DNA from: Loxodes magnus
Lineage: Eukaryota > Ciliophora > Karyorelictea > Loxodida > Loxodidae
DNA: 64,000 nucleotides
Assembly (NCBI GenBank): GCA_946699065.1
Contig: CAMPDV010000116.1
Location: 1 to 64,000 of the forward strand
Reading direction: 5' to 3'
Position numbers and translations under genes: made by a program. Below are positions 15,455 to 64,000 of the stretch, in pieces. Within the stretch, counting starts at the first letter, position 1. Each line of letters opens with the position of its first letter. The notes beneath the pieces are model-generated. The model saw nothing but the letters and a program-made list of their open reading frames with translations, made no database searches and was not told the origin of the DNA.

Positions 15455-17296
15455 CTAATCATAACTTCCCGATACGATGAACTCTGAATCACTGGATATA
15501 GCCACAGCATATACATAACTAGTGTGACCACTCATTGTCTTACAGGTACCTGTCTTGACGTCCCATAGTCTCACCGTCTTATCATCACTTCCCGATACGA
15601 TGAACTCTGAATCACTGGATATAGCCACAGCATATACATAACTAGTGTGACCACTCATGGTCTTACAGGTACCTTTCTTGACGTCCCATAGTCTCACCAT
15701 CTTATCATAACTTCCCGATACGATGAACTCTGAATCACTGGATATAGCCACAGCATATACATAACTAGTGTGACCACTCATGGTCTTACAGGTACCTGTC
15801 TTGACGTTCCATAGTCTCACCGTCTTATCATGACTTCCCGATACGATGAAATCTGAATCACTGGATATAGCCACAGCATAAACAGAACTAGTTTGACAAC
15901 TCATGGTCTTACAGGTACCTGTCTTGACGTTCCATAGTCTCACCGTCTTATCATCACTTCCCGATACGATGAACTCTGAATCACTGGATATAGCCACAGC
16001 ATATACATAACTAGTGTGACCACTCATGGTCTTACAGGTACCTGTCTTGACGTTCCATAGTCTCACCGTCTTATCATGACTTCCCGATACGATGAACTCT
16101 GAATCACTGGATATAGCCACAGCATATACATAACTAGTGTGACCACTCATGGTCTTACAGGTACCTGTCTTGACGTTCCATAGTCTCACCGTCTTATCAT
16201 GACTTCCCGATACGATGAACTCTGAATCACTGGATATAGCCACAGCATAAACAGAACTAGTTTGACAACTCATGGTCTTACAGGTACCTGTCTTGACGTT
16301 CCATAGTCTCACCGTCTTATCATGACTTCCCGATACGATGAACTCTGAATCACTGGATATAGCCACAGCATATACATAACTAGTGTGACCACTCATGGTC
16401 TTACAGGTACCTGTCTTGACGTTCCATAGTCTCACCGTCTTATCATCACTTCCCGATACGATGAACTCTGAATCACTGGATATAGCCACAGCATATACAT
16501 AACTAGTGTGACCACTCATGGTCTTACAGGTACCTGTCTTGACGTCCCATAGTCTCACCGTCTTATCATCACTTCCCGATACGATGAACTCTGAATCACT
16601 GGATATAGCCACAGCAGATACATAACTAGTGTGACCACTCGTGGTCTTACAGGTAACTGTCTTGACGTCCCATAGTCTCACCGTCTTATCATCACTTCCC
16701 GATACGATGAACTCTGAATCACTGGATATAGCCACAGCATATACATAACTAGTGTGACCACTCATGGTCTTACAGGTACCTGTCTTGACGTTCCATAGTC
16801 TCACCGTCTTATCATCACTTCCCGATACGATGAACTCTGAATCACTGGATATAGCCACAGCAGATACATAACTAGTGTGACCACTCGTGGTCTTACAGGT
16901 AACTGTCTTGACGTCCCATAGTCTCACCGTCTTATCATCACTTCCCGATACGATGAACTCTGAATCACTGGATATAGCCACAGCATATACATAACTAGTG
17001 TGACCACTCGTGGTCTTACAGGTAACTGTCTTGACGTCCCATAGTCTCACCGTCTTATCATGACTTCCCGATACGATGAACTCTGAATCACTGGATATAG
17101 CCACAGCATATACATAACTAGTGTGACCACTCATGGTCTTACAGGTACCTGTCTTGACGTCCCATAGTCTCACCGTCTTATCATCACTTCCCGATACGAT
17201 GAACTCTGAATCACTGGATATAGCCACAGCATATACATAACTAGTGTGACCACTCATGGTCTTACAGGTACCTGTCTTGACGTCCCATAGTCTCAC
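15455..17296 (-). CDS. WD40-repeat open segment, 613 aa (15 units)
   Basis: Bounded by S-Y-D-TAG units at 15455 and 17300. Units with Gly37-to-Val (K-T-V-T-C) are concentrated here, each followed by T-T-S-G-H. One unit near 15700 has K-M-V in place of K-T-V and another near 15850 has D18 in place of E18. Confidence 0.45.
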   Translation of the reverse strand: MRLWDVKTGTCKTMSGHTSYVYAVAISSDSEFIVSGSDDKTVRLWDVKTGTCKTMSGHTSYVYAVAISSDSEFIVSGSHDKTVRLWDVKTVTCKTTSGHTSYVYAVAISSDSEFIVSGSDDKTVRLWDVKTVTCKTTSGHTSYVSAVAISSDSEFIVSGSDDKTVRLWNVKTGTCKTMSGHTSYVYAVAISSDSEFIVSGSDDKTVRLWDVKTVTCKTTSGHTSYVSAVAISSDSEFIVSGSDDKTVRLWDVKTGTCKTMSGHTSYVYAVAISSDSEFIVSGSDDKTVRLWNVKTGTCKTMSGHTSYVYAVAISSDSEFIVSGSHDKTVRLWNVKTGTCKTMSCQTSSVYAVAISSDSEFIVSGSHDKTVRLWNVKTGTCKTMSGHTSYVYAVAISSDSEFIVSGSHDKTVRLWNVKTGTCKTMSGHTSYVYAVAISSDSEFIVSGSDDKTVRLWNVKTGTCKTMSCQTSSVYAVAISSDSDFIVSGSHDKTVRLWNVKTGTCKTMSGHTSYVYAVAISSDSEFIVSGSYDKMVRLWDVKKGTCKTMSGHTSYVYAVAISSDSEFIVSGSDDKTVRLWDVKTGTCKTMSGHTSYVYAVAISSDSEFIVSGSYD

Positions 17297-17299
17297 CGT

Positions 17300-18772
17300 C
17301 TAATCATAACTTCCCGATACGATGAACTCTGAATCACTGGATATAGCCACAGCATATACATAACTAGTGTGACCACTCATGGTCTTACAGGTACCTGTCT
17401 TGACGTTCCATAGTCTCACCGTCTTATCATCACTTCCCGATACGATGAACTCTGAATCACTGGATATAGCCACAGCATATACATAACTAGTGTGACCACT
17501 CATGGTCTTACAGGTACCTGTCTTGACGTCCCATAGTCTCACCGTCTTATCATGACTTCCCGATACGATGAACTCTGAATCACTGGATATAGCCACAGAT
17601 GATACATAACTAGTGTGACCACTCATGGTCTTACAGGTACCTGTCTTGACGTCCCATAGTCTCACCGTCTTATCATCACTTCCCGATACGATGAACTCTG
17701 AATCACTGGATATAGCCACAGCATATACATAACTAGTGTGACCAGTCATGGTCTTACAGGTACCTGTCTTGACGTCCCATAGTCTCACCGTCTTATCATC
17801 ACTTCCCGATACGATGAACTCTGAATCACTGGATATAGCCACAGCATATACATAACTAGTGTGACCACTCATGGTCTTACAGGTACCTGTCTTGACGTTC
17901 CATAGTCTCACCGTCTTATCATCACTTCCCGATACGATGAACTCTGAATCACTGGATATAGCCACAGCATAAACAGAACTAGTTTGACAACTCATGGTCT
18001 TACAGGTACCTGTCTTGACGTTCCATAGTCTCACCGTCTTATCATGACTTCCCGATACGATGAACTCTGAATCACTGGATATAGCCACAGCATATACATA
18101 ACTAGTGTGACCACTCATGGTCTTACAGGTACCTGTCTTGACGTTCCATAGTCTCACCGTCTTATCATCACTTCCCGATACGATGAACTCTGAATCACTG
18201 GATATAGCCACAGCATATACATAACTAGTGTGACCACTCATGGTCTTACAGGTACCTGTCTTGACGTCCCATAGTCTCACCGTCTTATCATGACTTCCCG
18301 ATACGATGAACTCTGAATCACTGGATATAGCCACAGCAGATACATAACTAGTGTGACCACTCGTGGTCTTACAGGTAACTGTCTTGACGTCCCATAGTCT
18401 CACCGTCTTATCATCACTTCCCGATACGATGAACTCTGAATCACTGGATATAGCCACAGCAGATACATAACTAGTGTGACCACTCGTGGTCTTACAGGTA
18501 ACTGTCTTGACGTCCCATAGTCTCACCGTCTTATCATGACTTCCCGATACGATGAACTCTGAATCACTGGATATAGCCACAGCATATACATAACTAGTGT
18601 GACCACTCATGGTCTTACAGGTACCTGTCTTGACGTCCCATAGTCTCACCGTCTTATCATCACTTCCCGATACGATGAACTCTGAATCACTGGATATAGC
18701 CACAGCATATACATAACTAGTGTGACCACTCATGGTCTTACAGGTACCTGTCTTGACGTCCCATAGTCTCAC
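17300..18772 (-). CDS. WD40-repeat open segment, 490 aa (12 units)
   Basis: Exactly one copy of a 12-unit (1476-bp) spacing between S-Y-D-TAG units at 17300 and 18776. Its downstream five units are repeated in the next segment, including a lone M-T-G-H at 17741 matched at 19217. Its upstream units match those of 15455-17296, again 1476 bp apart. Confidence 0.45.
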   Translation of the reverse strand: MRLWDVKTGTCKTMSGHTSYVYAVAISSDSEFIVSGSDDKTVRLWDVKTGTCKTMSGHTSYVYAVAISSDSEFIVSGSHDKTVRLWDVKTVTCKTTSGHTSYVSAVAISSDSEFIVSGSDDKTVRLWDVKTVTCKTTSGHTSYVSAVAISSDSEFIVSGSHDKTVRLWDVKTGTCKTMSGHTSYVYAVAISSDSEFIVSGSDDKTVRLWNVKTGTCKTMSGHTSYVYAVAISSDSEFIVSGSHDKTVRLWNVKTGTCKTMSCQTSSVYAVAISSDSEFIVSGSDDKTVRLWNVKTGTCKTMSGHTSYVYAVAISSDSEFIVSGSDDKTVRLWDVKTGTCKTMTGHTSYVYAVAISSDSEFIVSGSDDKTVRLWDVKTGTCKTMSGHTSYVSSVAISSDSEFIVSGSHDKTVRLWDVKTGTCKTMSGHTSYVYAVAISSDSEFIVSGSDDKTVRLWNVKTGTCKTMSGHTSYVYAVAISSDSEFIVSGSYD

Positions 18773-18775
18773 CGT

Positions 18776-19387
18776 CTAATCATAACTTCCCGATACGATG
18801 AACTCTGAATCACTGGATATAGCCACAGCATATACATAACTAGTGTGACCACTCATGGTCTTACAGGTACCTGTCTTGACGTTCCATAGTCTCACCGTCT
18901 TATCATCACTTCCCGATACGATGAACTCTGAATCACTGGATATAGCCACAGCATATACATAACTAGTGTGACCACTCATGGTCTTACAGGTACCTGTCTT
19001 GACGTCCCATAGTCTCACCGTCTTATCATGACTTCCCGATACGATGAACTCTGAATCACTGGATATAGCCACAGATGATACATAACTAGTGTGACCACTC
19101 ATGGTCTTACAGGTACCTGTCTTGACGTCCCATAGTCTCACCGTCTTATCATCACTTCCCGATACGATGAACTCTGAATCACTGGATATAGCCACAGCAT
19201 ATACATAACTAGTGTGACCAGTCATGGTCTTACAGGTACCTGTCTTGACGTCCCATAGTCTCACCGTCTTATCATCACTTCCCGATACGATGAACTCTGA
19301 ATCACTGGATATAGCCACAGCATATACATAACTAGTGTGACCACTCATGGTCTTACAGGTACCTGTCTTGACGTCCCATAGTCTCAC
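18776..19387 (-). CDS. WD40-repeat open segment, 203 aa (5 units)
   Basis: Second copy of the five units that end the segment at 17300, differing at residue 33 of the first unit. It starts just after an S-A-D-TAG unit at 19391. Confidence 0.4.
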   Translation of the reverse strand: MRLWDVKTGTCKTMSGHTSYVYAVAISSDSEFIVSGSDDKTVRLWDVKTGTCKTMTGHTSYVYAVAISSDSEFIVSGSDDKTVRLWDVKTGTCKTMSGHTSYVSSVAISSDSEFIVSGSHDKTVRLWDVKTGTCKTMSGHTSYVYAVAISSDSEFIVSGSDDKTVRLWNVKTGTCKTMSGHTSYVYAVAISSDSEFIVSGSYD

Positions 19388-19390
19388 CGT

Positions 19391-19756
19391 CTAATCTGCA
19401 CTTCCCGATACGATGAACTCTGAATCACTGGATATAGCCACAGCAGATACAACACTAGTGTGACCAGTCATGGTCTTACAGGTACCTGTCTTGACGTCCC
19501 ATAGTCTCACCGTCTTATCATTACTTGCCGATACGATGAACTCTGAATCACTGGATATAGCCACAGATGATACATAACTAGTGTGACCACTCATGGTCTT
19601 ACAGGTACCTGTCTTGACGTCCCATAGTCTCACCGTCTTATCATCACTTCCCGATACGATGAACTCTGAATCACTGGATATAGCCACAGATGATACATAA
19701 CTAGTGTGACCACTCATGGTCTTACAGGTACCTGTCTTGACGTCCCATAGTCTCAC
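19391..19756 (-). CDS. WD40-repeat open segment, 121 aa (3 units)
   Basis: Three units between the only two S-A-D-TAG units seen, at 19391 and 19760. It contains the first T-S-V-V-S-A unit (about 19447), marking the edge of the zone where that variant is common. Confidence 0.35.
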   Translation of the reverse strand: MRLWDVKTGTCKTMSGHTSYVSSVAISSDSEFIVSGSDDKTVRLWDVKTGTCKTMSGHTSYVSSVAISSDSEFIVSASNDKTVRLWDVKTGTCKTMTGHTSVVSAVAISSDSEFIVSGSAD

Positions 19757-19759
19757 CGT

Positions 19760-20002
19760 CTAATCTGCACTTCCCGATACGATGAACTCTGAATCACTGG
19801 AAATAGCCACAGCATATACATAACTAGTGTGACCACTCATGGTCTTACAGGTACCTGTCTTGACGTCCCATAGTCTCACCGTCTTATCATGACTTCCCGA
19901 TACGATGAACTCTGAATCACTGGATATAGCCACAGCATATACATAACTAGTGTGACCACTCATGGTCTTACAGGTACCTGTCTTGACGTCCCATAGTCTC
20001 AC
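19760..20002 (-). CDS. Two-unit WD40 open segment, 80 aa
   Basis: Two units between TAG at 19760 and TAG at 20006. The following unit (20006-20131) is enclosed by TAG at both ends, so three stops fall within 370 bp. This is the densest cluster of stops outside the indel patches. Confidence 0.3.
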   Translation of the reverse strand: MRLWDVKTGTCKTMSGHTSYVYAVAISSDSEFIVSGSHDKTVRLWDVKTGTCKTMSGHTSYVYAVAISSDSEFIVSGSAD

Positions 20003-20128
20003 CGTCTAATCATTACTTCCCGATACGATGAACTCTGAATCACTGGATATAGCCACAGATGATACATAACTAGTGTGACCACTCATGGTCTTACAGGTAC
20101 CTGTCTTGACGTCCCATAGTCTCACCGT

Positions 20129-23100
20129 CTAATCATTACTTCCCGATACGATGAACTCTGAATCACTGGATATAGCCACAGATGATACATAACTAGTGTG
20201 ACCACTCATGGTCTTACAGGTACCTGTCTTGACGTCCCATAGTCTCACCGTCTTATCATGACTTCCCGATACGATGAACTCTGAATCACTGGATATAGCC
20301 ACAGCATATACATAACTAGTGTGACCACTCATGGTCTTACAGGTACCTGTCTTGACGTCCCATAGTCTCACCGTATAATCATAACTTCCCGATACGATGA
20401 ACTCTGAATCACTGGATATAGCCACAGCATATACATAACTAGTGTGACCACTCATGGTCTTACAGGTACCTGTCTTGACGTCCCATAGTCTCACCGTCTT
20501 ATCATGACTTCCCGATACGATGAACTCTGAATCACTGGATATAGCCACAGCATATACATAACTAGTGTGACCACTCATTGTCTTACAGGTACCTGTCTTG
20601 ACGTCCCATAGTCTCACCGTATTATCATGACTTCCCGATACGATGAACTCTGAATCACTGGATATAGCCACAGCAGATACATAACTAGTGTGACCACTCG
20701 TGGTCTTACAGGTACCTGTCTTGACGTCCCATAGTCTCACCGTATAATCATAACTTCCCGATACGATGAACTCTGAATCACTGGATATAGCCACAGCAGA
20801 TACAACACTAGTGTGACCAGTCATGGTCTTACAGGTACCTGTCTTGACGTTCCATAGTCTCACCGTATTATCATGACTTCCCGATACGATGAACTCTGAA
20901 TCACTGGATATAGCCACAGCAGATACAACACTAGTGTGACCAGTCATGGTCTTACAGGTACCTGTCTTGACGTCCCATAGTCTCACCGTATAATCATAAC
21001 TTCCCGATACGATGAACTCTGAATCACTGGATATAGCCACAGCAGATACAACACTAGTGTGACCAGTCATTGTCTTACAGGTACCTGTCTTGACGTCCCA
21101 TAGTCTCACCGTATTATCATGACTTCCCGATACGATGAACTCTGAATCACTGGATATAGCCACAGCATATACATAACTAGTGTGACCACTCATTGTCTTA
21201 CAGGTACCTGTCTTGACGTCCCATAGTCTCACCGTATAATCATAACTTCCCGATACGATGAACTCTGAATCACTGGATATAGCCACAGCATATACATAAC
21301 TAGTGTGACCACTCGTGGTCTTACAGGTACCTGTCTTGACGTCCCATAGTCTCACCGTCTTATCATGACTTCCCGATACGATGAACTCTGAATCACTGGA
21401 TATAGCCACAGCAGATACAACACTAGTGTGACCAGTCATGGTCTTACAGGTACCTGTCTTGACGTTCCATAGTCTCACCGTCTTATCATAACTTCCCGAT
21501 ACGATGAACTCTGAATCACTGGATATAGCCACAGATGATACAACACTAGTGTGACCAGTCATGGTCTTACAGGTACCTGTCTTGACGTCCCATAGTCTCA
21601 CCGTATTATCATGACTTCCCGATACGATGAACTCTGAATCACTGGATATAGCCACAGCAGATACAACACTAGTGTGACCAGTCATGGTCTTACAGGTACC
21701 TGTCTTGACGTCCCATAGTCTCACCGTCTTATCATTACTTCCCGATACGATGAACTCTGAATCACTGGATATAGCCACAGCATATACATAACTAGTGTGA
21801 CCACTCATGGTCTTACAGGTACCTGTCTTGACGTCCCATAGTCTCACCGTCTTATCATCACTTCCCGATACGATGAACTCTGAATCACTGGATATAGCCA
21901 CAGATGATACATAACTAGTGTGACCACTCATGGTCTTACAGGTACCTGTCTTGACGTTCCATAGTCTCACCGTCTTATCATGACTTCCCGATACGATGAA
22001 CTCTGAATCACTGGATATAGCCACAGCAGATACATAACTAGTGTGACCACTCGTGGTCTTACAGGTAACTGTCTTGACGTCCCATAGTCTCACCGTCTTA
22101 TCATGACTTCCCGATACGATGAACTCTGAATCACTGGATATAGCCACAGATGATACATAACTAGTGTGACCACTCATGGTCTTACAGGTACCTGTCTTGA
22201 CGTCCCATAGTCTCACCGTCTTATCATGACTTCCCGATACGATGAACTCTGAATCACTGGATATAGCCACAGATGATACATAACTAGTGTGACCACTCAT
22301 GGTCTTACAGGTACCTGTCTTGACGTTCCATAGTCTCACCGTCTTATCATAACTTCCCGATACGATGAACTCTGAATCACTGGATATAGCCACAGCATAT
22401 ACATAACTAGTGTGACCACTCATGGTCTTACAGGTACCTGTCTTGACGTCCCATAGTCTCACCGTATAATCATAACTTCCCGATACGATGAACTCTGAAT
22501 CACTGGATATAGCCACAGCAGATACAACACTAGTGTGACCAGTCATGGTCTTACAGGTACCTGTCTTGACGTTCCATAGTCTCACCGTCTTATCATAACT
22601 TCCCGATACGATGAACTCTGAATCACTGGATATAGCCACAGATGATACAGAATCTGTGTGACCACTCATGGTCTTACAGGTACCTGTCTTGACGTCCCAT
22701 AGTCTCACCGTCTTATCATCACTTCCCGATACGATGAACTCTGAATCACTGGATATAGCCACAGATGATACATAACTAGTGTGACCACTCATGGTCTTAC
22801 AGGTACCTGTCTTGACGTTCCATAGTCTCACCGTCTTATCATGACTTCCCGATACGATGAACTCTGAATCACTGGATATAGCCACAGCAGATACATAACT
22901 AGTGTGACCACTCGTGGTCTTACAGGTAACTGTCTTGACGTCCCATAGTCTCACCGTCTTATCATGACTTCCCGATACGATGAACTCTGAATCACTGGAT
23001 ATAGCCACAGATGATACATAACTAGTGTGACCACTCATGGTCTTACAGGTACCTGTCTTGACGTCCCATAGTCTCACCGTCTTATCATGACTTCCCGATA

Positions 23101-24307
23101 CGATGAACTCTGAATCACTGGATATAGCCACAGATGATACATAACTAGTGTGACCAATCATGGTCTTACAGGTACCTGTCTTGACGTCCCATAGTCTCAC
23201 CGTCTCATCATCACTTCCCGATACGATGAACTCTGAATCACTGGATATAGCCACAGCATATACATAACTAGTGTGACCACTCATGGTCTTACAGGTACCT
23301 GTCTTGACGTTGCATAGTCTCACCGTCTTATCATCACTTGCCGATACGATGAACTCTGAATCACTGGATATAGCCAAAGATAATACATAACTAGTGTGAC
23401 CACTCATGGTCTTACAGGTACCTGTCTTGACGTCCCATAGTCTCACCGTCTTATCATCACTTCCCGATACGATGAACTCTGAATCACTGGATATAGCCAC
23501 AGCAGATACATAACTAGTGTGACCACTCGTGGTCTTACAGGTACCTGTCTTGACGTTCCATAGTCTCACCGTCTCATCTATACTTGCCGATACGATGAAC
23601 TCTGAATCACTGGATATAGCCACAGCAGATACATAACTTGTGTGACCACTCATGGTCTTACAGGTACCTGTCTTGACGTCCCATAGTCTCACCGTATAAT
23701 CATAACTTCCCGATACGATGAACTCTGAATCACTGGATATAGCCACAGCATATACATAACTAGTGTGACCACTCATGGTCTTACAGGTACCTGTCTTGAC
23801 GTTCCATAGTCTCACCGTCTTATCATGACTTCCAGATACGATGAACTCTGAATCACTGGATATAGCCACAGATGATACATAACTAGTGTGACCACTCATG
23901 GTCTTACAGGTACCTGTCTTGACGTTCCATAGTCTCACCGTCTTATCATCACTTCCAGATACGATGAACTCTGAATCACTGGATATAGCCACAGCAGATA
24001 CATAACTAGTGTGACCACTCATGGTCTTACAGGTACCTGTCTTGACGTCCCATAGTCTCACCGTATAATCATAACTTCCCGATACGATGAACTCTGAATC
24101 ACTGGATATAGCCACAGCATATACATAACTAGTGTGACCACTCATGGTCTTACAGGTACCTGTCTTGACGTCCCATAGTCTCACCGTCTTATCATGACTT
24201 CCCGATACGATGAACTCTGAATCACTGGATATAGCCACAGATGATACATAACTAGTGTGACCACTCATGGTCTTACAGGTACCTGTCTTGACGTCCCATA
24301 GTCTCAC
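20129..24307 (-). CDS. Long open WD40 segment, 1392 aa (34 units)
   Basis: Thirty-four units between S-N-D-TAG at 20129 and 24311. Rich in M-T-G-H/T-S-V-V-S-A, Y-D-Y and H-D-N units, with T-D-S-V-S-S near 22640. The Leu-Cys-Asn variant (W32 to C) first appears near 23311, and S-I-D-E near 23575. No start or upstream signal. Confidence 0.5.
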   Translation of the reverse strand: MRLWDVKTGTCKTMSGHTSYVSSVAISSDSEFIVSGSHDKTVRLWDVKTGTCKTMSGHTSYVYAVAISSDSEFIVSGSYDYTVRLWDVKTGTCKTMSGHTSYVSAVAISSDSEFIVSGSDDKTVRLWNVKTGTCKTMSGHTSYVSSVAISSDSEFIVSGSHDKTVRLWNVKTGTCKTMSGHTSYVYAVAISSDSEFIVSGSYDYTVRLWDVKTGTCKTMSGHTSYVSAVAISSDSEFIVSASIDETVRLWNVKTGTCKTTSGHTSYVSAVAISSDSEFIVSGSDDKTVRLWDVKTGTCKTMSGHTSYVLSLAISSDSEFIVSASDDKTVRLCNVKTGTCKTMSGHTSYVYAVAISSDSEFIVSGSDDETVRLWDVKTGTCKTMIGHTSYVSSVAISSDSEFIVSGSHDKTVRLWDVKTGTCKTMSGHTSYVSSVAISSDSEFIVSGSHDKTVRLWDVKTVTCKTTSGHTSYVSAVAISSDSEFIVSGSHDKTVRLWNVKTGTCKTMSGHTSYVSSVAISSDSEFIVSGSDDKTVRLWDVKTGTCKTMSGHTDSVSSVAISSDSEFIVSGSYDKTVRLWNVKTGTCKTMTGHTSVVSAVAISSDSEFIVSGSYDYTVRLWDVKTGTCKTMSGHTSYVYAVAISSDSEFIVSGSYDKTVRLWNVKTGTCKTMSGHTSYVSSVAISSDSEFIVSGSHDKTVRLWDVKTGTCKTMSGHTSYVSSVAISSDSEFIVSGSHDKTVRLWDVKTVTCKTTSGHTSYVSAVAISSDSEFIVSGSHDKTVRLWNVKTGTCKTMSGHTSYVSSVAISSDSEFIVSGSDDKTVRLWDVKTGTCKTMSGHTSYVYAVAISSDSEFIVSGSNDKTVRLWDVKTGTCKTMTGHTSVVSAVAISSDSEFIVSGSHDNTVRLWDVKTGTCKTMTGHTSVVSSVAISSDSEFIVSGSYDKTVRLWNVKTGTCKTMTGHTSVVSAVAISSDSEFIVSGSHDKTVRLWDVKTGTCKTTSGHTSYVYAVAISSDSEFIVSGSYDYTVRLWDVKTGTCKTMSGHTSYVYAVAISSDSEFIVSGSHDNTVRLWDVKTGTCKTMTGHTSVVSAVAISSDSEFIVSGSYDYTVRLWDVKTGTCKTMTGHTSVVSAVAISSDSEFIVSGSHDNTVRLWNVKTGTCKTMTGHTSVVSAVAISSDSEFIVSGSYDYTVRLWDVKTGTCKTTSGHTSYVSAVAISSDSEFIVSGSHDNTVRLWDVKTGTCKTMSGHTSYVYAVAISSDSEFIVSGSHDKTVRLWDVKTGTCKTMSGHTSYVYAVAISSDSEFIVSGSYDYTVRLWDVKTGTCKTMSGHTSYVYAVAISSDSEFIVSGSHDKTVRLWDVKTGTCKTMSGHTSYVSSVAISSDSEFIVSGSND

Positions 24308-24310
24308 CGT

Positions 24311-25906: not shown

Positions 25907-25909
25907 CGT

Positions 25910-29227: not shown

Positions 29228-29230
29228 CGT

Positions 29231-31564: not shown

Positions 31565-31567
31565 CGT

Positions 31568-34821: not shown

Positions 34822-34833
34822 AACTAGTGTGAC

Positions 34834-35780: not shown

Positions 35781-35855
35781 AGCATAAACGAACTAGTGTG
35801 AACTCATGTCTTACAGGTACCTGTCTTGACGTTCCATAGTCTCACCGTCTTATCA

Positions 35856-37073: not shown

Positions 37074-37076
37074 CGT

Positions 37077-42569: not shown

Positions 42570-42572
42570 CGT

Positions 42573-50378: not shown

Positions 50379-50860
50379 AGATATACATAACTAGTGTGAC
50401 CACTCATGGTCTTACAGGTACCTGTCTTGACGTTCCATAGTCTCACCGTCACCGTCTTATCATCATGCCGATACTTCCCGATACGATGAACTCTGAATCA
50501 CTGGATATAGCTGAATCACTGGAAATAGCCACAGCATATACATAACTAGACCACTCATGGTACAGGTACCTGTCTTGACGTTCCATAGTCTCACCGTCTT
50601 ATCATGACTTCCCGATACGATGAACTCTGAATCACTGGATATAGCCACAGATGATACATAACTAGTGTGACCACCATAGTCTCACCGTCACCGTTATCAT
50701 GCCGATACTTCCCGATACGATGAACTCTGAATCACTGGATATAGCCACAGATAGCCACAGCATATACATAACTAGTGTGACCACTCATGGTCTTACAGGT
50801 ACCTGTCTTGACGTTGCATAGTCTCACCGTCTTATCATCTTGACTTCCATGACTTCCCGA
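50365..50860. other. Patch of short duplications and deletions, net plus 29 bp
   Basis: Inserted copies include ccacag (50372), accgtc (50450), a second ctgaatcactgg (50511) and a second catgacttcc (near 50848); there is also a deletion of about 30 bp near 50672. Markers on either side (42621 to 51752, and 41518 to 53109) are both 29 bp over a whole number of units, which measures the net change. Confidence 0.7.
50463..50648 (-). pseudogene. WD40 remnant inside the 50.4-50.9 kb patch, 61 aa
   Basis: One and a half units with frame changes on both sides: deletions and short duplications near 50510, 50550 and 50670. Only the middle reads as WD40. Confidence 0.25.
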
Positions 50861-53107: not shown

Positions 53108-53110
53108 AGA

Positions 53111-56100: not shown

Positions 56101-59100
56101 TACCTGTCTTGACGTTCCATAGTCTCACCGTCTTATCATGACTTCCCGATACGATGAACTCTGAATCACTGGATATAGCCACAGCATATACATAACTAGT
56201 GTGACCACTCATGGTCTTACAGGTACCTGTCTTGACGTTGCATAGTCTCACCGTCTTATCATGACTTCCCGATACGATGAACTCTGAATCACTGGATATA
56301 GCCACAGCATATACATAACTAGTGTGACCACTCATGGTCTTACAGGTACCTGTCTTGACGTTGCATAGTCTCACCGTCTTATCATCACTTGCCGATACGA
56401 TGAACTCTGAATCACTGGATATAGCCAAAGCAGAAACATAACTAGTGTGACCACTCATGGTCTTACAGGTACCTGTCTTGACGTCCCATAGTCTCACCGT
56501 ATAATCATAACTTCCCGATACGATGAACTCTGAATCACTGGATATAGCCACAGCATATACATAACTAGTGTGACCACTCATGGTCTTACAGGTACCTGTC
56601 TTGACGTTCCATAGTCTCACCGTCTTATCATCACTTCCCGATACGATGAACTCTGAATCACTGGATATAGCCACAGCATATACATAACTAGTGTGACCAC
56701 TCATGGTCTTACAGGTACCTGTCTTGACGTTCCATAGTCTCACCGTCTTATCATGACTTCCAGATACGATGAACTCTGAATCACTGGATATAGCCACAGA
56801 TGATACATAACTAGTGTGACCACTCATGGTCTTACAGGTACCTGTCTTGACGTTCCATAGTCTCACCGTCTTATCATCACTTCCCGATACGATGAACTCT
56901 GAATCACTGGATATAGCCACAGCAGATACATAACTTGTGTGACCACTCATGGTCTTACAGGTACCTGTCTTGACGTCCCATAGTCTCACCGTATAATCAT
57001 AACTTCCCGATACGATGAACTCTGAATCACTGGATATAGCCACAGCATATACATAACTAGTGTGACCACTCATGGTCTTACAGGTACCTGTCTTGACGTT
57101 CCATAGTCTCACCGTCTTATCATCACTTGCCGATACGATGAACTCTGAATCACTGGATATAGCCAAAGCAGAAACATAACTAGTGTGACCACTCATGGTC
57201 TTACAGGTACCTGTCTTGACGTCCCATAGTCTCACCGTATAATCATAACTTCCCGATACGATGAACTCTGAATCACTGGATATAGCCACAGCAGATACAT
57301 AACTTGTGTGACCACTCATGGTCTTACAGGTACCTGTCTTGACGTCCCATAGTCTCACCGTATTATCATGACTTCCCGATACGATGAACTCTGAATCACT
57401 GGATATAGCCACAGATGATACATAACTAGTGTGACCACTCATGGTCTTACAGGTACCTGTCTTGACGTCCCATAGTCTCACCGTATAATCATAACTTCCC
57501 GATACGATGAACTCTGAATCACTGGATATAGCCACAGCATATACATAACTAGTGTGACCACTCATGGTCTTACAGGTACCTGTCTTGACGTCCCATAGTC
57601 TCACCGTATTATCATGACTTCCCGATACGATGAACTCTGAATCACTGGATATAGCCACAGATGATACATAACTAGTGTGACCACTCATGGTCTTACAGGT
57701 ACCTGTCTTGACGTCCCATAGTCTCACCGTATTATCATGACTTCCCGATACGATGAACTCTGAATCACTGGATATAGCCACAGCATATACATAACTAGTG
57801 TGACCACTCATGGTCTTACAGGTACCTGTCTTGACGTCCCATAGTCTCACCGTATAATCATGACTTCCAGATACGATGAACTCTGAATCACTGGATATAG
57901 CCACAGCATATACATAACTAGTGTGACCACTCATGGTCTTACAGGTACCTGTCTTGACGTTCCATAGTCTCACCGTCTTATCATGACTTCCCGATACGAT
58001 GAACTCTGAATCACTGGATATAGCCACAGCATATACATAACTAGTGTGACCACTCATGGTCTTACAGGTACCTGTCTTGACGTTGCATAGTCTCACCGTC
58101 TTATCATGACTTCCCGATACGATGAACTCTGAATCACTGGATATAGCCACAGCATATACATAACTAGTGTGACCACTCATGGTCTTACAGGTACCTGTCT
58201 TGACGTTGCATAGTCTCACCGTCTTATCATCACTTGCTGATACGATGAACTCTGAATCACTGGATATAGCCAAAGCAGAAACATAACTAGTGTGACCACT
58301 CATGGTCTTACAGGTACCTGTCTTGACGTCCCATAGTCTCACCGTATAATCATAACTTCCCGATACGATGAACTCTGAATCACTGGATATAGCCACAGCA
58401 TATACATAACTAGTGTGACCACTCATGGTCTTACAGGTACCTGTCTTGACGTCCCATAGTCTCACCGTATAATCATGACTTCCAGATACGATGAACTCTG
58501 AATCACTGGATATAGCCACAGCATATACATAACTAGTGTGACCACTCATGGTCTTACAGGTACCTGTCTTGACGTTCCATAGTCTCACCGTCTTATCATG
58601 ACTTCCCGATACGATGAACTCTGAATCACTGGATATAGCCACAGCATATACATAACTAGTGTGACCACTCATGGTCTTACAGGTACCTGTCTTGACGTCC
58701 CATAGTCTCACCGTATAATCATAACTTCCCGATACGATGAACTCTGAATCACTGGATATAGCCACAGCATATACATAACTAGTGTGACCACTCATGGTCT
58801 TACAGGTACCTGTCTTGACGTCCCATAGTCTCACCGTATAATCATAACTTCCCGATACGATGAACTCTGAATCACTGGATATAGCCACAGCATATACATA
58901 ACTAGTGTGACCACTCATGGTCTTACAGGTACCTGTCTTGACGTTCCATAGTCTCACCGTCTTATCATGACTTCCCGATACGATGAACTCTGAATCACTG
59001 GATATAGCCACAGCATATACATAACTAGTGTGACCACTCATGGTCTTACAGGTACCTGTCTTGACGTCCCATAGTCTCACCGTATAATCATAACTTCCCG

Positions 59101-59695
59101 ATACGATGAACTCTGAATCACTGGATATAGCCACAGCATATACATAACTAGTGTGACCACTCATGGTCTTACAGGTACCTGTCTTGACGTTCCATAGTCT
59201 CACCGTCTTATCATCACTTCCCGATACGATGAACTCTGAATCACTGGATATAGCCACAGATGATACATAACTAGTGTGACCACTCATGGTCTTACAGGTA
59301 CCTGTCTTGACGTTCCATAGTCTCACCGTCTTATCATGACTTCCAGATACGATGAACTCTGAATCACTGGATATAGCCACAGCATATACATAACTAGTGT
59401 GACCACTCATGGTCTTACAGGTACCTGTCTTGACGTCCCATAGTCTCACCGTATTATCATGACTTCCCGATACGATGAACTCTGAATCACTGGAAATAGC
59501 CACAGCATATACATAACTAGTGTGACCACTCATGGTCTTACAGGTACCTGTCTTGACGTCCCATAGTCTCACCGTCTTATCATGACTTCCCGATACGATG
59601 AACTCTGAATCACTGGATATAGCCACAGCATATACATAACTAGTGTGACCACTCATGGTCTTACAGGTACCTGTCTTGACGTCCCATAGTCTCAC
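53111..59695 (-). CDS. Second longest open WD40 segment, 2194 aa (53.5 units)
   Basis: Fifty-three units (6.6 kb) free of stops and frameshifts, from V-TGA-S at 53111 to N-D-TAG at 59699. Y-D-Y units dominate. Leu-Cys-Asn units often sit beside S-A-L-A/S-A-S units (53352, 56427, 58272), a linked block repeated at multiples of 123 bp. No start signal. With 7337-15451 it is the best candidate for constrained coding sequence. Confidence 0.55.
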   Translation of the reverse strand: MRLWDVKTGTCKTMSGHTSYVYAVAISSDSEFIVSGSHDKTVRLWDVKTGTCKTMSGHTSYVYAVAISSDSEFIVSGSHDNTVRLWDVKTGTCKTMSGHTSYVYAVAISSDSEFIVSGSHDKTVRLWNVKTGTCKTMSGHTSYVSSVAISSDSEFIVSGSDDKTVRLWNVKTGTCKTMSGHTSYVYAVAISSDSEFIVSGSYDYTVRLWDVKTGTCKTMSGHTSYVYAVAISSDSEFIVSGSHDKTVRLWNVKTGTCKTMSGHTSYVYAVAISSDSEFIVSGSYDYTVRLWDVKTGTCKTMSGHTSYVYAVAISSDSEFIVSGSYDYTVRLWDVKTGTCKTMSGHTSYVYAVAISSDSEFIVSGSHDKTVRLWNVKTGTCKTMSGHTSYVYAVAISSDSEFIVSGSHDYTVRLWDVKTGTCKTMSGHTSYVYAVAISSDSEFIVSGSYDYTVRLWDVKTGTCKTMSGHTSYVSALAISSDSEFIVSASDDKTVRLCNVKTGTCKTMSGHTSYVYAVAISSDSEFIVSGSHDKTVRLCNVKTGTCKTMSGHTSYVYAVAISSDSEFIVSGSHDKTVRLWNVKTGTCKTMSGHTSYVYAVAISSDSEFIVSGSHDYTVRLWDVKTGTCKTMSGHTSYVYAVAISSDSEFIVSGSHDNTVRLWDVKTGTCKTMSGHTSYVSSVAISSDSEFIVSGSHDNTVRLWDVKTGTCKTMSGHTSYVYAVAISSDSEFIVSGSYDYTVRLWDVKTGTCKTMSGHTSYVSSVAISSDSEFIVSGSHDNTVRLWDVKTGTCKTMSGHTSYVSAVAISSDSEFIVSGSYDYTVRLWDVKTGTCKTMSGHTSYVSALAISSDSEFIVSASDDKTVRLWNVKTGTCKTMSGHTSYVYAVAISSDSEFIVSGSYDYTVRLWDVKTGTCKTMSGHTSYVSAVAISSDSEFIVSGSDDKTVRLWNVKTGTCKTMSGHTSYVSSVAISSDSEFIVSGSHDKTVRLWNVKTGTCKTMSGHTSYVYAVAISSDSEFIVSGSDDKTVRLWNVKTGTCKTMSGHTSYVYAVAISSDSEFIVSGSYDYTVRLWDVKTGTCKTMSGHTSYVSALAISSDSEFIVSASDDKTVRLCNVKTGTCKTMSGHTSYVYAVAISSDSEFIVSGSHDKTVRLCNVKTGTCKTMSGHTSYVYAVAISSDSEFIVSGSHDKTVRLWNVKTGTCKTMSGHTSYVSSVAISSDSEFIVSGSHDKTVRLWNVKTGTCKTMSGHTSYVYAVAISSDSEFIVSGSYDYTVRLWDVKTGTCKTMSGHTSYVSAVAISSDSEFIVSGSYDYTVRLWDVKTGTCKTMSGHTSYVYAVAISSDSEFIVSGSYDYTVRLWNVKTGTCKTMSGHTSYVYAVAISSDSEFIVSGSYDYTVRLWDVKTGTCKTMSGHTSYVYAVAISSDSEFIVSGSYDYTVRLWDVKTGTCKTMSGHTSYVYAVAISSDSEFIVSGSYDYTVRLWDVKTGTCKTMSGHTSYVSSVAISSDSEFIVSGSDDKTVRLWNVKTGTCKTMSGHTSYVYAVAISSDSEFIVSGSHDKTVRLWNVKTGTCKTMSGHTSYVYAVAISSDSEFIVSGSHDKTVRLCNVKTGTCKTMSGHTSYVYAVAISSDSEFIVSGSHDKTVRLWNVKTGTCKTMSGHTSYVSSVAISSDSEFIVSGSHDKTVRLWNVKTGTCKTMSGHTSYVYAVAISSDSEFIVSGSYDYTVRLWDVKTGTCKTMSGHTSYVSAVAISSDSEFIVSGSYDYTVRLWDVKTGTCKTMSGHTSYVYAVAISSDSEFIVSGSYDYTVRLWNVKTGTCKTMSGHTSYVSAVAISSDSEFIVSGSYDYTVRLWDVKTGTCKTMSGHTSYVYAVAISSDSEFIVSGSYDYTVRLWDVKTGTCKTMSGHTSYVYAVAISSDSEFIVSGSYDYTVRLWDVKTGTCKTMSGHTSYVSAVAISSDSEFIVSASIDETVRLWNVKTGTCKTMSGHTSYVYAVAISSDSEFIVSGSYDYTVRLWDVKTGTCKTMSGHTSYVSSVAISSDSEFIVSGSHDKTVRLWNVKTGTCKTMSGHTSYVYAVAISSDSEFIVSGSYDYTVRLWDVKTGTCKTMSGHTSYVSALAISSDSEFIVSASDDKTVRLCNVKTGTCKTMSGHTSYVYAVAISSDSEFIVSGSDDKTVRLCNVKTGTCKTMSGHTSYV

Positions 59696-59698
59696 CGT

Positions 59699-61171
59699 CT
59701 AATCATTACTTCCCGATACGATGAACTCTGAATCACTGGATATAGCCACAGCATATACATAACTAGTGTGACCACTCATGGTCTTACAGGTACCTGTCTT
59801 GACGTTCCATAGTCTCACCGTCTTATCATCACTTCCCGATACGATGAACTCTGAATCACTGGATATAGCCACAGATGATACATAACTAGTGTGACCACTC
59901 ATGGTCTTACAGGTACCTGTCTTGACGTCCCATAGTCTCACCGTATAATCATAACTTCCCGATACGATGAACTCTGAATCACTGGAAATAGCCACAGCAT
60001 ATACATAACTAGTGTGACCACTCATGGTCTTACAGGTACCTGTCTTGACGTTCCATAGTCTCACCGTCTTATCATGACTTCCCGATACGATGAACTCTGA
60101 ATCACTGGATATAGCCACAGCATATACATAACTAGTGTGACCACTCATGGTCTTACAGGTACCTGTCTTGACGTCCCATAGTCTCACCGTCTCATCTATA
60201 CTTGCCGATACGATGAACTCTGAATCACTGGATATAGCCACAGCAGATACATAACTTGTGTGACCACTCATGGTCTTACAGGTACCTGTCTTGACGTCCC
60301 ATAGTCTCACCGTCTTATCATGACTTCCAGATACGATGAACTCTGAATCACTGGATATAGCCACAGCATATACATAACTAGTGTGACCACTCATGGTCTT
60401 ACAGGTACCTGTCTTGACGTCCCATAGTCTCACCGTATTATCATGACTTCCCGATACGATGAACTCTGAATCACTGGATATAGCCACAGCATATACATAA
60501 CTAGTGTGACCACTCGTGGTCTTACAGGTACCTGTCTTGACGTCCCATAGTCTCACCGTCTTATCATGACTTCCAGATACGATGAACTCTGAATCACTGG
60601 ATATAGCCACAGCATATACATAACTAGTGTGACCACTCATGGTCTTACAGGTACCTGTCTTGACGTTCCATAGTCTCACCGTCTTATCATCACTTCCCGA
60701 TACGATGAACTCTGAATCACTGGATATAGCCACAGCAGATACATAACTAGTGTGACCACTCATGGTCTTACAGGTACCTGTCTTGACGTCCCATAGTCTC
60801 ACCGTCTTATCATCACTTCCCGATACGATGAACTCTGAATCACTGGATATAGCCACAGCAGATACATAACTAGTGTGACCACTCATGGTCTTACAGGTAC
60901 CTGTCTTGACGTTCCATAGTCTCACCGTCTTATCATGACTTCCAGATACGATGAACTCTGAATCACTGGATATAGCCACAGCATATACATAACTAGTGTG
61001 ACCACTCATGGTCTTACAGGTACCTGTCTTGACGTTCCATAGTCTCACCGTCTTATCATGACTTCCCGATACGATGAACTCTGAATCACTGGATATAGCC
61101 ACAGCAGATACATAACTAGTGTGACCACTCATGGTCTTACAGGTACCTGTCTTGACGTCCCATAGTCTCAC
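59699..61171 (-). CDS. WD40-repeat open segment, 490 aa (12 units)
   Basis: Between N-D-TAG at 59699 and 61175, twelve units apart. The four downstream units match those of the next segment at 1476 bp; the four upstream units match its upstream end at 984 bp (eight units). Confidence 0.45.
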   Translation of the reverse strand: MRLWDVKTGTCKTMSGHTSYVSAVAISSDSEFIVSGSHDKTVRLWNVKTGTCKTMSGHTSYVYAVAISSDSEFIVSGSHDKTVRLWNVKTGTCKTMSGHTSYVSAVAISSDSEFIVSGSDDKTVRLWDVKTGTCKTMSGHTSYVSAVAISSDSEFIVSGSDDKTVRLWNVKTGTCKTMSGHTSYVYAVAISSDSEFIVSGSHDKTVRLWDVKTGTCKTTSGHTSYVYAVAISSDSEFIVSGSHDNTVRLWDVKTGTCKTMSGHTSYVYAVAISSDSEFIVSGSHDKTVRLWDVKTGTCKTMSGHTSYVSAVAISSDSEFIVSASIDETVRLWDVKTGTCKTMSGHTSYVYAVAISSDSEFIVSGSHDKTVRLWNVKTGTCKTMSGHTSYVYAVAISSDSEFIVSGSYDYTVRLWDVKTGTCKTMSGHTSYVSSVAISSDSEFIVSGSDDKTVRLWNVKTGTCKTMSGHTSYVYAVAISSDSEFIVSGSND

Positions 61172-61174
61172 CGT

Positions 61175-62155
61175 CTAATCATTACTTCCCGATACGATGA
61201 ACTCTGAATCACTGGATATAGCCACAGCATATACATAACTAGTGTGACCACTCATGGTCTTACAGGTACCTGTCTTGACGTTCCATAGTCTCACCGTCTT
61301 ATCATCACTTCCCGATACGATGAACTCTGAATCACTGGATATAGCCACAGATGATACATAACTAGTGTGACCACTCATGGTCTTACAGGTACCTGTCTTG
61401 ACGTCCCATAGTCTCACCGTATAATCATAACTTCCCGATACGATGAACTCTGAATCACTGGATATAGCCACAGCATATACATAACTAGTGTGACCACTCA
61501 TGGTCTTACAGGTACCTGTCTTGACGTTCCATAGTCTCACCGTCTTATCATGACTTCCAGATACGATGAACTCTGAATCACTGGATATAGCCACAGCATA
61601 TACATAACTAGTGTGACCACTCATGGTCTTACAGGTACCTGTCTTGACGTTCCATAGTCTCACCGTCTTATCATGACTTCCCGATACGATGAACTCTGAA
61701 TCACTGGATATAGCCACAGCAGATACATAACTAGTGTGACCACTCATGGTCTTACAGGTACCTGTCTTGACGTCCCATAGTCTCACCGTCTTATCATCAC
61801 TTCCCGATACGATGAACTCTGAATCACTGGATATAGCCACAGCAGATACATAACTAGTGTGACCACTCATGGTCTTACAGGTACCTGTCTTGACGTTCCA
61901 TAGTCTCACCGTCTTATCATGACTTCCAGATACGATGAACTCTGAATCACTGGATATAGCCACAGCATATACATAACTAGTGTGACCACTCATGGTCTTA
62001 CAGGTACCTGTCTTGACGTTCCATAGTCTCACCGTCTTATCATGACTTCCCGATACGATGAACTCTGAATCACTGGATATAGCCACAGCAGATACATAAC
62101 TAGTGTGACCACTCATGGTCTTACAGGTACCTGTCTTGACGTCCCATAGTCTCAC
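61175..62155 (-). CDS. WD40-repeat open segment, 326 aa (8 units)
   Basis: Eight units between N-D-TAG codons at 61175 and 62159. Both ends are near copies of the ends of 59699-61171, so this segment looks like a duplicated version of it with four units fewer. Confidence 0.45.
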   Translation of the reverse strand: MRLWDVKTGTCKTMSGHTSYVSAVAISSDSEFIVSGSHDKTVRLWNVKTGTCKTMSGHTSYVYAVAISSDSEFIVSGSHDKTVRLWNVKTGTCKTMSGHTSYVSAVAISSDSEFIVSGSDDKTVRLWDVKTGTCKTMSGHTSYVSAVAISSDSEFIVSGSHDKTVRLWNVKTGTCKTMSGHTSYVYAVAISSDSEFIVSGSHDKTVRLWNVKTGTCKTMSGHTSYVYAVAISSDSEFIVSGSYDYTVRLWDVKTGTCKTMSGHTSYVSSVAISSDSEFIVSGSDDKTVRLWNVKTGTCKTMSGHTSYVYAVAISSDSEFIVSGSND

Positions 62156-62158
62156 CGT

Positions 62159-64000
62159 CTAATCATTACTTCCCGATACGATGAACTCTGAATCACTGGA
62201 TATAGCCACAGCATATACATAACTAGTGTGACCACTCATGGTCTTACAGGTACCTGTCTTGACGTTCCATAGTCTCACCGTCTTATCATCACTTCCCGAT
62301 ACGATGAACTCTGAATCACTGGATATAGCCACAGCATATACATAACTAGTGTGACCACTCATGGTCTTACAGGTACCTGTCTTGACGTCCCATAGTCTCA
62401 CCGTATAATCATAACTTCCCGATACGATGAACTCTGAATCACTGGATATAGACACAGCATATACATAACTAGTGTGACCACTCATGGTCTTACAGGTACC
62501 TGTCTTGACGTTCCATAGTCTCACCGTATAATCATAACTTCCCGATACGATGAACTCTGAATCACTGGATATAGCCACAGCAGATACATAACTTGTGTGA
62601 CCACTCATGGTCTTACAGGTACCTGTCTTGACGTCCCATAGTCTCACCGTCTTATCATCACTTCCCGATACGATGAACTCTGAATCACTGGATATAGCCA
62701 CAATATATACATAACCTGTGTGACCACTCATGGTCTTACAGGTACCTGTCTTGACGTTCCATAGTCTCACCGTCTTATCATTACTTCCCGATACGATGAA
62801 CTCTGAATCACTGGATATAGCCACAGATGATACATAACTAGTGTGACCACTCATGGTCTTACAGGTACCTGTCTTGACGTTCCATAGTCTCACCGTCTTA
62901 TCATCACTTCCCGATACGATGAACTCTGAATCACTGGATATAGCCACAGCAGATACATAACTAGTGTGACCACTCATGGTCTTACAGGTACCTGTCTTGA
63001 CGTTCCATAGTCTCACCGTCTTATCATGACTTCCAGATACGATGAACTCTGAATCACTGGATATAGCCACAGATGATACATAACTAGTGTGACCACTCAT
63101 GGTCTTACAGGTACCTGTCTTGACGTTGCATAGTCTCACCGTCTTATCATGACTTCCAGATACGATGAACTCTGAATCACTGGATATAGCCACAGATGAT
63201 ACATAACTAGTGTGACCACTCATGGTCTTACAGGTACCTGTCTTGACGTTCCATAGTCTCACCGTCTTATCATGACTTCCAGATACGATGAACTCTGAAT
63301 CACTGGATATAGCCACAGCATATACATAACTAGTGTGACCACTCATGGTCTTACAGGTACCTGTCTTGACGTCCCATAGTCTCACCGTATAATCATAACT
63401 TCCCGATACGATGAACTCTGAATCACTGGATATAGCCACAGCATATACATAACTTGTGTGACCACTCATGGTCTTACAGGTACCTGTCTTGACGTCCCAT
63501 AGTCTCACCGTATAATCATAACTTCCCGATACGATGAACTCTGAATCACTGGATATAGCCACAGCATATACATAACTAGTGTGACCACTCATGGTCTTAC
63601 AGGTACCTGTCTTGACGTCCCATAGTCTCACCGTATAATCATAACTTCCCGATACGATGAACTCTGAATCATTGGATATAGCCACAGCATATACATAACT
63701 AGTGTGACCACTCATGGTCTTACAGGTACCTGTCTTGACGTCCCATAGTCTCACCGTCTTATCATCACTTCCCGATACGATGAACTCTGAATCACTGGAT
63801 ATAGCCACAGCATATACATAACTAGTGTGACCACTCATGGTCTTACAGGTACCTGTCTTGACGTTCCATAGTCTCACCGTCTTATCATCACTTCCCGATA
63901 CGATGAACTCTGAATCACTGGATATAGCCAAAGATAATACATAACTAGTGTGACCACTCATGGTCTTACAGGTACCTGTCTTGACGTTCCATAGTCTCAC
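62159..64000 (-). CDS. WD40-repeat open segment running off the window edge, at least 613 aa
   Basis: Fifteen units from N-D-TAG at 62159 to the last base, still open, so the true upstream extent is unknown. It includes the 62.45-62.78 kb block (A-V-S-I, T-G-Y-V-Y-I-V, S-N-D-K) copied from or to 51.5-51.83 kb, and an I-S-N-D unit near 63671. Confidence 0.45.
   Translation of the reverse strand: MRLWNVKTGTCKTMSGHTSYVLSLAISSDSEFIVSGSDDKTVRLWNVKTGTCKTMSGHTSYVYAVAISSDSEFIVSGSDDKTVRLWDVKTGTCKTMSGHTSYVYAVAISNDSEFIVSGSYDYTVRLWDVKTGTCKTMSGHTSYVYAVAISSDSEFIVSGSYDYTVRLWDVKTGTCKTMSGHTSYVYAVAISSDSEFIVSGSYDYTVRLWDVKTGTCKTMSGHTSYVYAVAISSDSEFIVSGSHDKTVRLWNVKTGTCKTMSGHTSYVSSVAISSDSEFIVSGSHDKTVRLCNVKTGTCKTMSGHTSYVSSVAISSDSEFIVSGSHDKTVRLWNVKTGTCKTMSGHTSYVSAVAISSDSEFIVSGSDDKTVRLWNVKTGTCKTMSGHTSYVSSVAISSDSEFIVSGSNDKTVRLWNVKTGTCKTMSGHTGYVYIVAISSDSEFIVSGSDDKTVRLWDVKTGTCKTMSGHTSYVSAVAISSDSEFIVSGSYDYTVRLWNVKTGTCKTMSGHTSYVYAVSISSDSEFIVSGSYDYTVRLWDVKTGTCKTMSGHTSYVYAVAISSDSEFIVSGSDDKTVRLWNVKTGTCKTMSGHTSYVYAVAISSDSEFIVSGSND

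Follow-up and report, generated by a model that had tools for sequence, protein, structure and literature searches.

Sense-codon diversity at a hypervariable residue of a tandem WD40 array in the recoded genome of Loxodes magnus

Near-identical tandem WD40 units with chimera-making exchange are known from the HNWD/NWD genes of Podospora anserina (het-d, het-e, het-r; PMC2873952, PMC12222747), and units of a similar kind make up the subject of this study, a tandem array on contig C116 of the karyorelict ciliate Loxodes magnus. In the HNWD repeats, codons 7, 9 and 25, 27 are positively selected, and modelling places them on the binding face (PMC2873952). A functional allele of these fungal genes typically has 11 strongly conserved repeats together with HET and NACHT domains, and its phenotype is known. 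The WD, ANK and TPR repeat domains of fungal NOD-like receptors (NLRs) share high internal conservation and positive selection at few codons (PMC4986451). Similarly near-identical blades are present in the WD-40 repeat protein of PDB entry 2ymu, a chain of 577 residues.

We analysed bases 1-64000 of C116 (the window; the contig has 756,765 bp) in an assembly of 705,730,643 bp and 7,843 contigs. A minus-strand tandem array with period 123 fills the entire window (about 520 copies with 95% matches according to Tandem Repeats Finder, TRF) and extends past it to ~110,490. At this 5' limit it breaks off in the middle of a unit and adjoins AT-rich DNA of 18-31% GC. The Pfam WD40 profile (PF00400), applied to consecutive units, matches seven stretches in 287 amino acids (E 3.6e-83). 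In a sequence search of PDB the close matches were WD40 proteins, and the best chain was 2ymu, a cyanobacterial protein.

As in the HNWD genes, conserved repeats are mixed by recombination (TRF matches, decay of linkage disequilibrium and a copying model, see below), and amino acid variation is in excess at codons 7, 9, 25 and 27, the numbering being equated here from the unit sequence. At its 5' end, the C116 array showed no HNWD-type N-terminus with HET and NACHT domains. The array also differs in having almost 900 units, recoded stop codons, and exact marker copies in hundreds of thousands. Fungal NLR repeats sit in NLR genes, whereas no NOD-domain link was seen for the arrays considered here, and the 2ymu chain is short compared with a many-kilobase array. 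No report of such WD40 arrays was found among the listed open-licence papers on karyorelicts or ciliates with WD40, NACHT or NLR.

Our preferred explanation, with a probability of about 0.8, is a large karyorelict WD40 array in which TAG and TAA encode Gln and TGA is able to encode Trp, the codons at residue 27 are standing variants, units recombine, and diversity is concentrated at four codons. Codon 27 would then alternate among five sense residues, Lys, Tyr, Glu, Gln and Asn. Units would be copied and mixed by recombination within arrays, and probably also between arrays; the mosaic pattern points to unequal crossing over or gene conversion with fine-scale breakpoints. Amino acid diversity would gather at residues 7, 9, 25 and 27, which by analogy with HNWD may form the binding face of a beta-propeller. 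The best reading is one of recombining arrays of putative WD40 binding surfaces.

Residue 27 and the genetic code

Units were numbered with Met as residue 1 and the Lys/Tyr codon as residue 27 (unit bases 79-81). In the window, 510 of 517 units were counted (at most 25 mismatches to the consensus; seven were too divergent and were dropped). Residue 27 is encoded by AAG in 354 of them, TAT in 92, GAG in 24, TAG in 20, AAT in 19 and AAA in one. For the whole C116 array, 864 of 895 units were kept (31 with more than 14 mismatches were dropped), with AAG in 529, TAT in 193, GAG in 58, TAG in 53, AAT in 30 and AAA in one, that is, Lys 530, Tyr 193, Glu 58, Gln 53 and Asn 30.

The original prediction, made from the letters of this DNA, had described 20 stop codons TAG and all four combinations AAG, TAT, AAT and TAG at this residue, and the unit tally matches that picture. 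The six sites it named as TAG in a Y-D context (15455, 17300, 18776, 29231, 31568, 37077) are exactly the six window units with Y-D-TAG (TATGATTAG). The abundance of H-D-N units (CATGATAAT) is likewise borne out, as they account for 16 of the 19 window AAT units, but one of their coordinates was two bases off (38389 for 38391). The context N-D-TAG is found in 11 of the 20 window TAG units, and in 27 of 53 over the C116 array. The pattern is real and well counted, but had been given the wrong meaning: in this recoded ciliate genome TAG is not a stop, and the variation at this hypervariable WD40 residue is between sense codons.

The genetic code was assessed with a search of the same genome for the HSP70 family, which gave 68 matches. 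The best 31 of these have at least 777 bits and at least 590 of 599 positions, and each contains 4-11 TAG, 11-20 TAA and no TGA codons in frame. One of the 31 lies on the window's own contig (C116:501451-503268). A near-full-length match on C626 contains 8 TAG, 33 TAA and no TGA. One HSP70 copy, translated with TAA and TAG as Gln, aligns to a mitochondrial stress-70 protein. In this copy 9 of the 19 TAA/TAG codons align with Gln residues in the best PDB match (counted by eye), and both Gln of the NDSQRQAT stretch are encoded by TAA/TAG. In 71 of the 134 WD40 units of C1503, the Trp position of GHTD-W-VRSIAISPD is occupied by TGA. Codon content of HSP70, alignment to Gln and TGA at the WD40 Trp are as predicted by NCBI table 27, the code given for L. 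magnus (UAA/UAG = Gln, UGA = Trp or stop; PMC11441545), and no difference from that karyorelict code was seen.

TAG and TAA are Gln codons in this genome. UGA may serve in both roles: a use as Trp would match the WD40 positions, and a use as stop would agree with its absence from the best 31 HSP70 matches and with the published code (PMC11441545). TGA also occurs inside several partial HSP70 matches. The TGA codons of the window at residues 30 and 9 are possibly Trp under table 27. Since TAG is Gln, the residue-27 alternatives Lys, Tyr, Asn, Gln and Glu are all sense, and the reading of TAG as a nonsense codon is ruled out by the HSP70 matches and by TGA at the WD40 Trp. A false signal is thereby removed: the nonsense codons viewed as a cost of repeat shuffling appear only when the standard code is applied to a karyorelict genome. 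What is new relative to table 27 as known is the presence of recoded codons among the common alleles of hypervariable residues.

Genome-wide abundance of the codon classes was measured by exact 21-mers GATxxxACGGTGAGACTATGG, where x is codon 27. There are 122,468 such 21-mers with TAT, 107,019 with TAG, 84,481 with AAG and 59,420 with AAT, 373,388 in total. If each marks one 123-bp unit, they represent 45.9 Mb, or 6.5% of the assembly. The context Y-D-TAG alone is present in 38,327 exact 24-mers. In a 6-kb stretch of C6 with 44 units, 29 have TAG, 15 have AAT and none has AAG or TAT; among the matches listed in contig order, AAG 21-mers jump from C5 to C8, with none on C6, and many AAT 21-mers are on C6. 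Because all classes are abundant genome-wide, the four combinations need no local origin. AAG, TAT, AAT and TAG are best taken as standing variation in a repeat family found throughout the genome.

HSP70 matches on C45, C86 and C854 form tandem sets of at least ten near-identical copies. The fragments on C854 are spaced by ~2.1 kb, and TGA lies inside one part of each.

Mosaic units and the origin of the codon combinations

The fine-scale mosaicism of units is real. All four combinations of AAG, AAT, TAG and TAT at unit bases 79 and 81 occur among the 864 C116 units. This codon is not alone in showing the four-gamete state, which was found for 2 of 17 pairs of common sites spaced 1-2 bp apart (79/81 included) and for 15 of 29 pairs 3-6 bp apart. 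Linkage disequilibrium over the C116 units decays from a mean r2 of 0.27 to 0.06. Fitting a copying model to 25 randomly chosen five-unit segments gave one template switch per ~130-200 bp, against ~3e-4 mutations per bp.

Flanking markers were compared in distinct units. Those with AAT behave as expected of exchange within the codon: T73 is present in 3 of 16, compared with 31 of 43 TAT units (p=3.3e-4), so the left marker is Lys-type, and G97 is present in 14 of 16, compared with 69 of 136 AAG units (p=6.6e-3), so the right marker is Tyr-type. Distinct TAG units carry the Tyr-type T73 on the left in 10 of 22, compared with 16 of 136 AAG units (p=4.8e-4), and their right marker is separable from neither parent (p=0.5 and 0.59). 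For N-D-TAG the copying model gives TAT on the left a posterior of ~0.01 (among the rows listed), and N-D-TAT units, the potential left parent, are absent from the 864 C116 units.

The six Y-D-TAG sites were considered individually by the longest exact matches to TAT and AAG units on either side of the codon. At 17300 and 18776 the left flank favours TAT (227 vs 128 bp), and the right flank is not that of AAG (188 bp for AAG vs 190). At 37077 the left flank is tied (50, 50) and the right one is Lys-type (261 vs 48); at 15455 the left is again tied (78, 78) and the right is Tyr-type (237 vs 188). At 29231 and 31568 the left flank is Lys-type (243 and 227 vs 50), and AAG sisters span the codon (243+67 and 227+85). 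By this measure a Tyr-type left flank and a Lys-type right flank occur together at none of the six sites.

In the copying-model test of classes, eight TAG and three AAT units lacking two intact neighbours per side were left out. All 45 testable TAG units and all 27 testable AAT units were best explained as copies of their own class. With own-class copies excluded, a switch has a mean posterior of 0.89 for the 45 TAG and 0.96 for the 27 AAT units, mainly because switches are ~20 times commoner than mutations a priori. Given own-class copying and the abundance of TAG genome-wide, a local origin of TAG is not required.

The suggestion of fine-scale exchange is supported as regards mosaicism and the reciprocal flanks of AAT, but for TAG it is upheld by the left flank only. 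Units with AAT switch parental type at residue 27 as had been predicted, and units with TAG do so partly at the left marker and not at the right one. The claim that shuffling makes nonsense codons fails, as no nonsense codon is created when TAG is Gln, and the six Y-D-TAG units proposed as chimeras of Tyr and Lys units lack the pair of flanks that such an origin predicts. Flanks of purely Lys type, which would have pointed to simple mutation of AAG, are not the rule either. TAG flanks are mixed overall, although 29231 and 31568 do show Lys-type left flanks with spanning AAG sisters. A simple AAG-to-TAG change confined to this array is ruled out by these mixed flanks and by the presence of TAG genome-wide.

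An older event is a different matter. There is about an even chance that TAG goes back to one founder change, either from AAG (Lys to Gln) or from TAT, which happened long before the array existed and was spread by duplication and inter-array exchange. The four codons form a square of single changes, and own-class copying of all testable TAG units, the genome-wide number of TAG copies and the AAG sisters that span 29231 and 31568 would all fit such an origin. However, TAG follows seven different amino acids at residue 25 (Asn, Tyr, Ala, Asp, Val, Gln and Trp all occur), so that later exchange or several origins would be needed.

Hypervariable residues 7, 9, 25 and 27

The highest amino acid entropy in C116 is at residues 25, 27 and 9, followed by 33, 10, 1 and 7. 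Eight unit sets from seven contigs were compared, belonging to the 123-bp family (C116, 864 units; C528, 158 and 26; C1346, 26; C6, 44; C4, 14) and to a distinct 126-bp family (C1503, 134; C119, 40). Residues 7, 9, 25 and 27 carry 25-66% of the total entropy in the eight sets. By permutation, this concentration has p-values between 2e-5 and 1.5e-4 in seven sets and of 0.015 in the 14 units of C4; as copying relates the units of each set to one another, these values serve only as a guide. Of the four, residue 7 stands out least, with ranks from 3 to 7, and in C4 residue 27 comes 17th. The nonsynonymous diversity (piN) at the four codons is 3.9-17.7 times the overall synonymous diversity (piS) in all eight sets.

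Recoded codons follow the same positions in most sets of the 123-bp family. TAA, TAG and TGA are at the four residues in 63 of 70 cases in C116, 85 of 85 in C6 and 16 of 17 in C4, and in two small sets all of these codons (16 and 6) are there. The larger C528 set has 0 of its 3 at these residues, C1503 has 75 of 144 and C119 has 4 of 8; those elsewhere in C1503 are mostly TGA at residue 1.

A third WD40 family, with 126-bp units (TLKGHG...SVAL.SDMRSIVSGS.D.TIKIWDVQTGSCTR), was seen in the 400 bp at the starts of C4 and C18. Its few units differ mainly at residues 25, 27 and 9.

The arrays probably are, or recently descend from, translated repeats selected as recognition surfaces. Several observations weigh against the explanation given above. 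Outside the four codons, piN/piS is 0.71-1.38 in the 123-bp family, which means no purifying selection and is satellite-like; in C116 the variants there comprise 79 nonsynonymous, 16 synonymous and one TGA, against 283, 81 and 5 possible. In seven of the eight sets the four codons have elevated synonymous diversity as well, and piN/piS within these codons alone is 1.6-6.5. At 91.6-110.5 kb of C116, a compound +2 frameshift variant has come to occupy 20 units. The array has no in-frame start codon before it at its 5' end, and no N-terminal domain upstream: when ten minus-strand frames of the adjoining 5.5 kb, read with code 6, were compared with Pfam, the two matches obtained were below the family cut-off. 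A NACHT search gave 31 weak matches, none beside a listed array. As to the code, a near-full-length HSP70 match on C342 holds two TGA (with 8 TAG and 25 TAA). Finally, the Loxodes authors suspect misassembly of such tandem repeats (PMC11441545).

One possibility is that the array is a non-coding satellite derived from a WD40 gene, in which the four-position pattern is fossil selection, passively copied, and no protein is made. We rate this slightly below an even chance; it is compatible with the code and the standing-variant parts of our explanation, and the two confidences overlap. The neutral-looking variants outside the four codons of the 123-bp family, the 5' end with neither start codon nor domain, the spread of the frameshift variant and the sheer amount of sequence (the 45.9 Mb, with each 21-mer taken as one unit) would all be expected of a satellite. 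On the other hand, piN/piS outside the four codons is 0.45 and 0.25 in the two sets of the 126-bp family, indicating purifying selection, and the same four positions vary in this distinct family. Frame-intact runs of 276 and 331 units, and an open frame of 13,854 amino acids on C528 with WD40 matches at C528:221178-227849, would also be unexpected.

Partial assembly or polishing artefacts of a collapsed repeat are an improbable source of the mosaic units. The authors' suspicion of misassembly, their use of Falcon at 96% identity and Racon (PMC11441545), and the scrambled stretch at 50.3-51.0 kb speak for such artefacts, but Y-D-TAG, N-D-TAG and A-D-TAG are found again on other contigs (C528, C4 and C6), and Y-D-TAG is present in tens of thousands of exact copies. 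It is very hard to sustain that TAG and AAT arose in this array from Tyr/Lys chimeras with breakpoints in codon 27, TAG acting as a damaging stop. The four gametes at 79/81, the AAT markers, the partly switched left marker of TAG and the switch posteriors, which come largely from the model prior, speak for it. Against it, the nonsense part is refuted by TAG = Gln, N-D-TAG wants a Tyr-type left parent, no Y-D-TAG site has both predicted flanks, and both codons are plentiful on other contigs, C6 having them with no AAG among the matches listed.

Under the preferred explanation of recombining, putatively translated arrays, WD40 arrays of a kind fitting the low-complexity tandem repeats masked by the Loxodes authors bear the selection fingerprint of fungal non-self receptors. 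These tandem repeats are given as 231 Mbp of a macronuclear assembly of 706 Mbp (PMC11441545). If expressed, the arrays would provide a single-celled eukaryote with a recombining recognition repertoire.

Window features and contig ends

Features of the window are collected in Table 1. Code 6 merges fragments into a single open frame of 9,320 amino acids at 5975-33937, with 13 recoded codons. Frame-intact runs were computed with TGA also passed over.

Table 1. Array, recoded and variant residue-27 codons, and frame features of the window (positions in bases 1-64000)
Feature	Position	Strand	Details
Tandem array of 123-bp (41-aa) WD40 units	1..64000	-	consensus MSGHTSYVYAVAISSDSEFIVSGSHDKTVRLWNVKTGTCKT; from TRF, unit extraction and flank sequence
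TAG (Gln), residue 27	4385..4387	-	N-D-Q
TAG (Gln), residue 27	7091..7093	-	N-D-Q
TAG (Gln), residue 27	7337..7339	-	N-D-Q
TAG (Gln), residue 27	15455..15457	-	Y-D-Q
TAG (Gln), residue 27	17300..17302	-	Y-D-Q
TAG (Gln), residue 27	18776..18778	-	Y-D-Q
TAG (Gln), residue 27	19391..19393	-	A-D-Q
TAG (Gln), residue 27	19760..19762	-	A-D-Q
TAG (Gln), residue 27	20006..20008	-	N-D-Q
TAG (Gln), residue 27	20129..20131	-	N-D-Q
TAG (Gln), residue 27	24311..24313	-	N-D-Q
TAG (Gln), residue 27	25910..25912	-	N-D-Q
TAG (Gln), residue 27	29231..29233	-	Y-D-Q
TAG (Gln), residue 27	31568..31570	-	Y-D-Q
TAG (Gln), residue 27	37077..37079	-	Y-D-Q
TAG (Gln), residue 27	42573..42575	-	D-D-Q
TAG (Gln), residue 27	44049..44051	-	N-D-Q
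TAG (Gln), residue 27	59699..59701	-	N-D-Q
TAG (Gln), residue 27	61175..61177	-	N-D-Q
TAG (Gln), residue 27	62159..62161	-	N-D-Q
19 AAT (Asn) codons, residue 27	span 20621..60439	-	20621, 20867, 21113, 21605, 26279, 26525, 35361, 38391, 39006, 39867, 40113, 40851, 41466, 53057, 57362, 57608, 57731, 59453, 60437
TGA codons	span 1793..53113	-	residue 30: 1793, 3269, 3515, 5237, 5975; residue 9: 41520, 47301, 48162, 53111
Frame-intact run, 276 units	38..33985	-	11,316 codons; 14 TAG, 6 TGA, 0 TAA
Zone with remaining irregular unit spacings	33902..38387	-	122, 351, 122, 119, 121, 239, 183, 31 bp
Frame-intact run, 98 units	38349..50402	-	3 TAG, 3 TGA
Scrambled stretch	50319..50962	-	short local duplications and deletions
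Frame-intact run, 331 units, window portion	50924..64000	-	run ends at C116:91636

The scrambling at 50319-50962 is possibly a consensus error, and the odd unit lengths at 33902-38387 resemble consensus errors in the same way. Nine of the 20 frameshift-variant units are identical over the stretch compared, and 91.6-110.5 kb is not a single reading frame. Two other array flanks were seen: a stretch of C119, still within array, and one array end on C4, adjoining degenerate WD40 sequence.

Orientation was scored in a set assembled post hoc from listed WD40 sites at most 90 kb from the ends of C1-C21, with C74 (full extent unknown), C116 and C119 added. Among the matches listed, 21 of 22 sites have their coding strand directed outward (sign test, p 1.1e-5). 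The inward exception is C2:2734773, and the smaller contigs C528 and C412 are also inward. The 400-bp ends of C1-C21, 40 in all, carry WD40 sequence at four, and an 80-bp satellite has its purine-rich strand outward at 18 of 20 scored ends, some of the scores being very weak.

Subtelomeres are a usual site of exchange between variable gene families. The orientation and end location would fit subtelomeric arrays. Tentatively, and as an unlikely extension of the preferred explanation, tens of Mb of WD40 arrays near chromosome ends might form a recombining repertoire of binding surfaces, with TAG, TAA and TGA (Gln, Gln and Trp) as common alleles at four binding-face residues and distinct families varying as in fungal allorecognition receptors. 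In the strongest form of this proposal, the arrays and the 80-bp satellite, with its largely uniform strand polarity, would be the chromosome ends.

Loxodes telomeres escaped detection (PMC11441545), and the 80-bp satellite is a candidate for the chromosome ends that the authors could not find. Arrays located at ends include those at the start of C116, at the start and end of C4 and of C6, and at the end of C119. Inner WD40 sites are found at C2:232239-248134, C3:1484420 and C14:318915.

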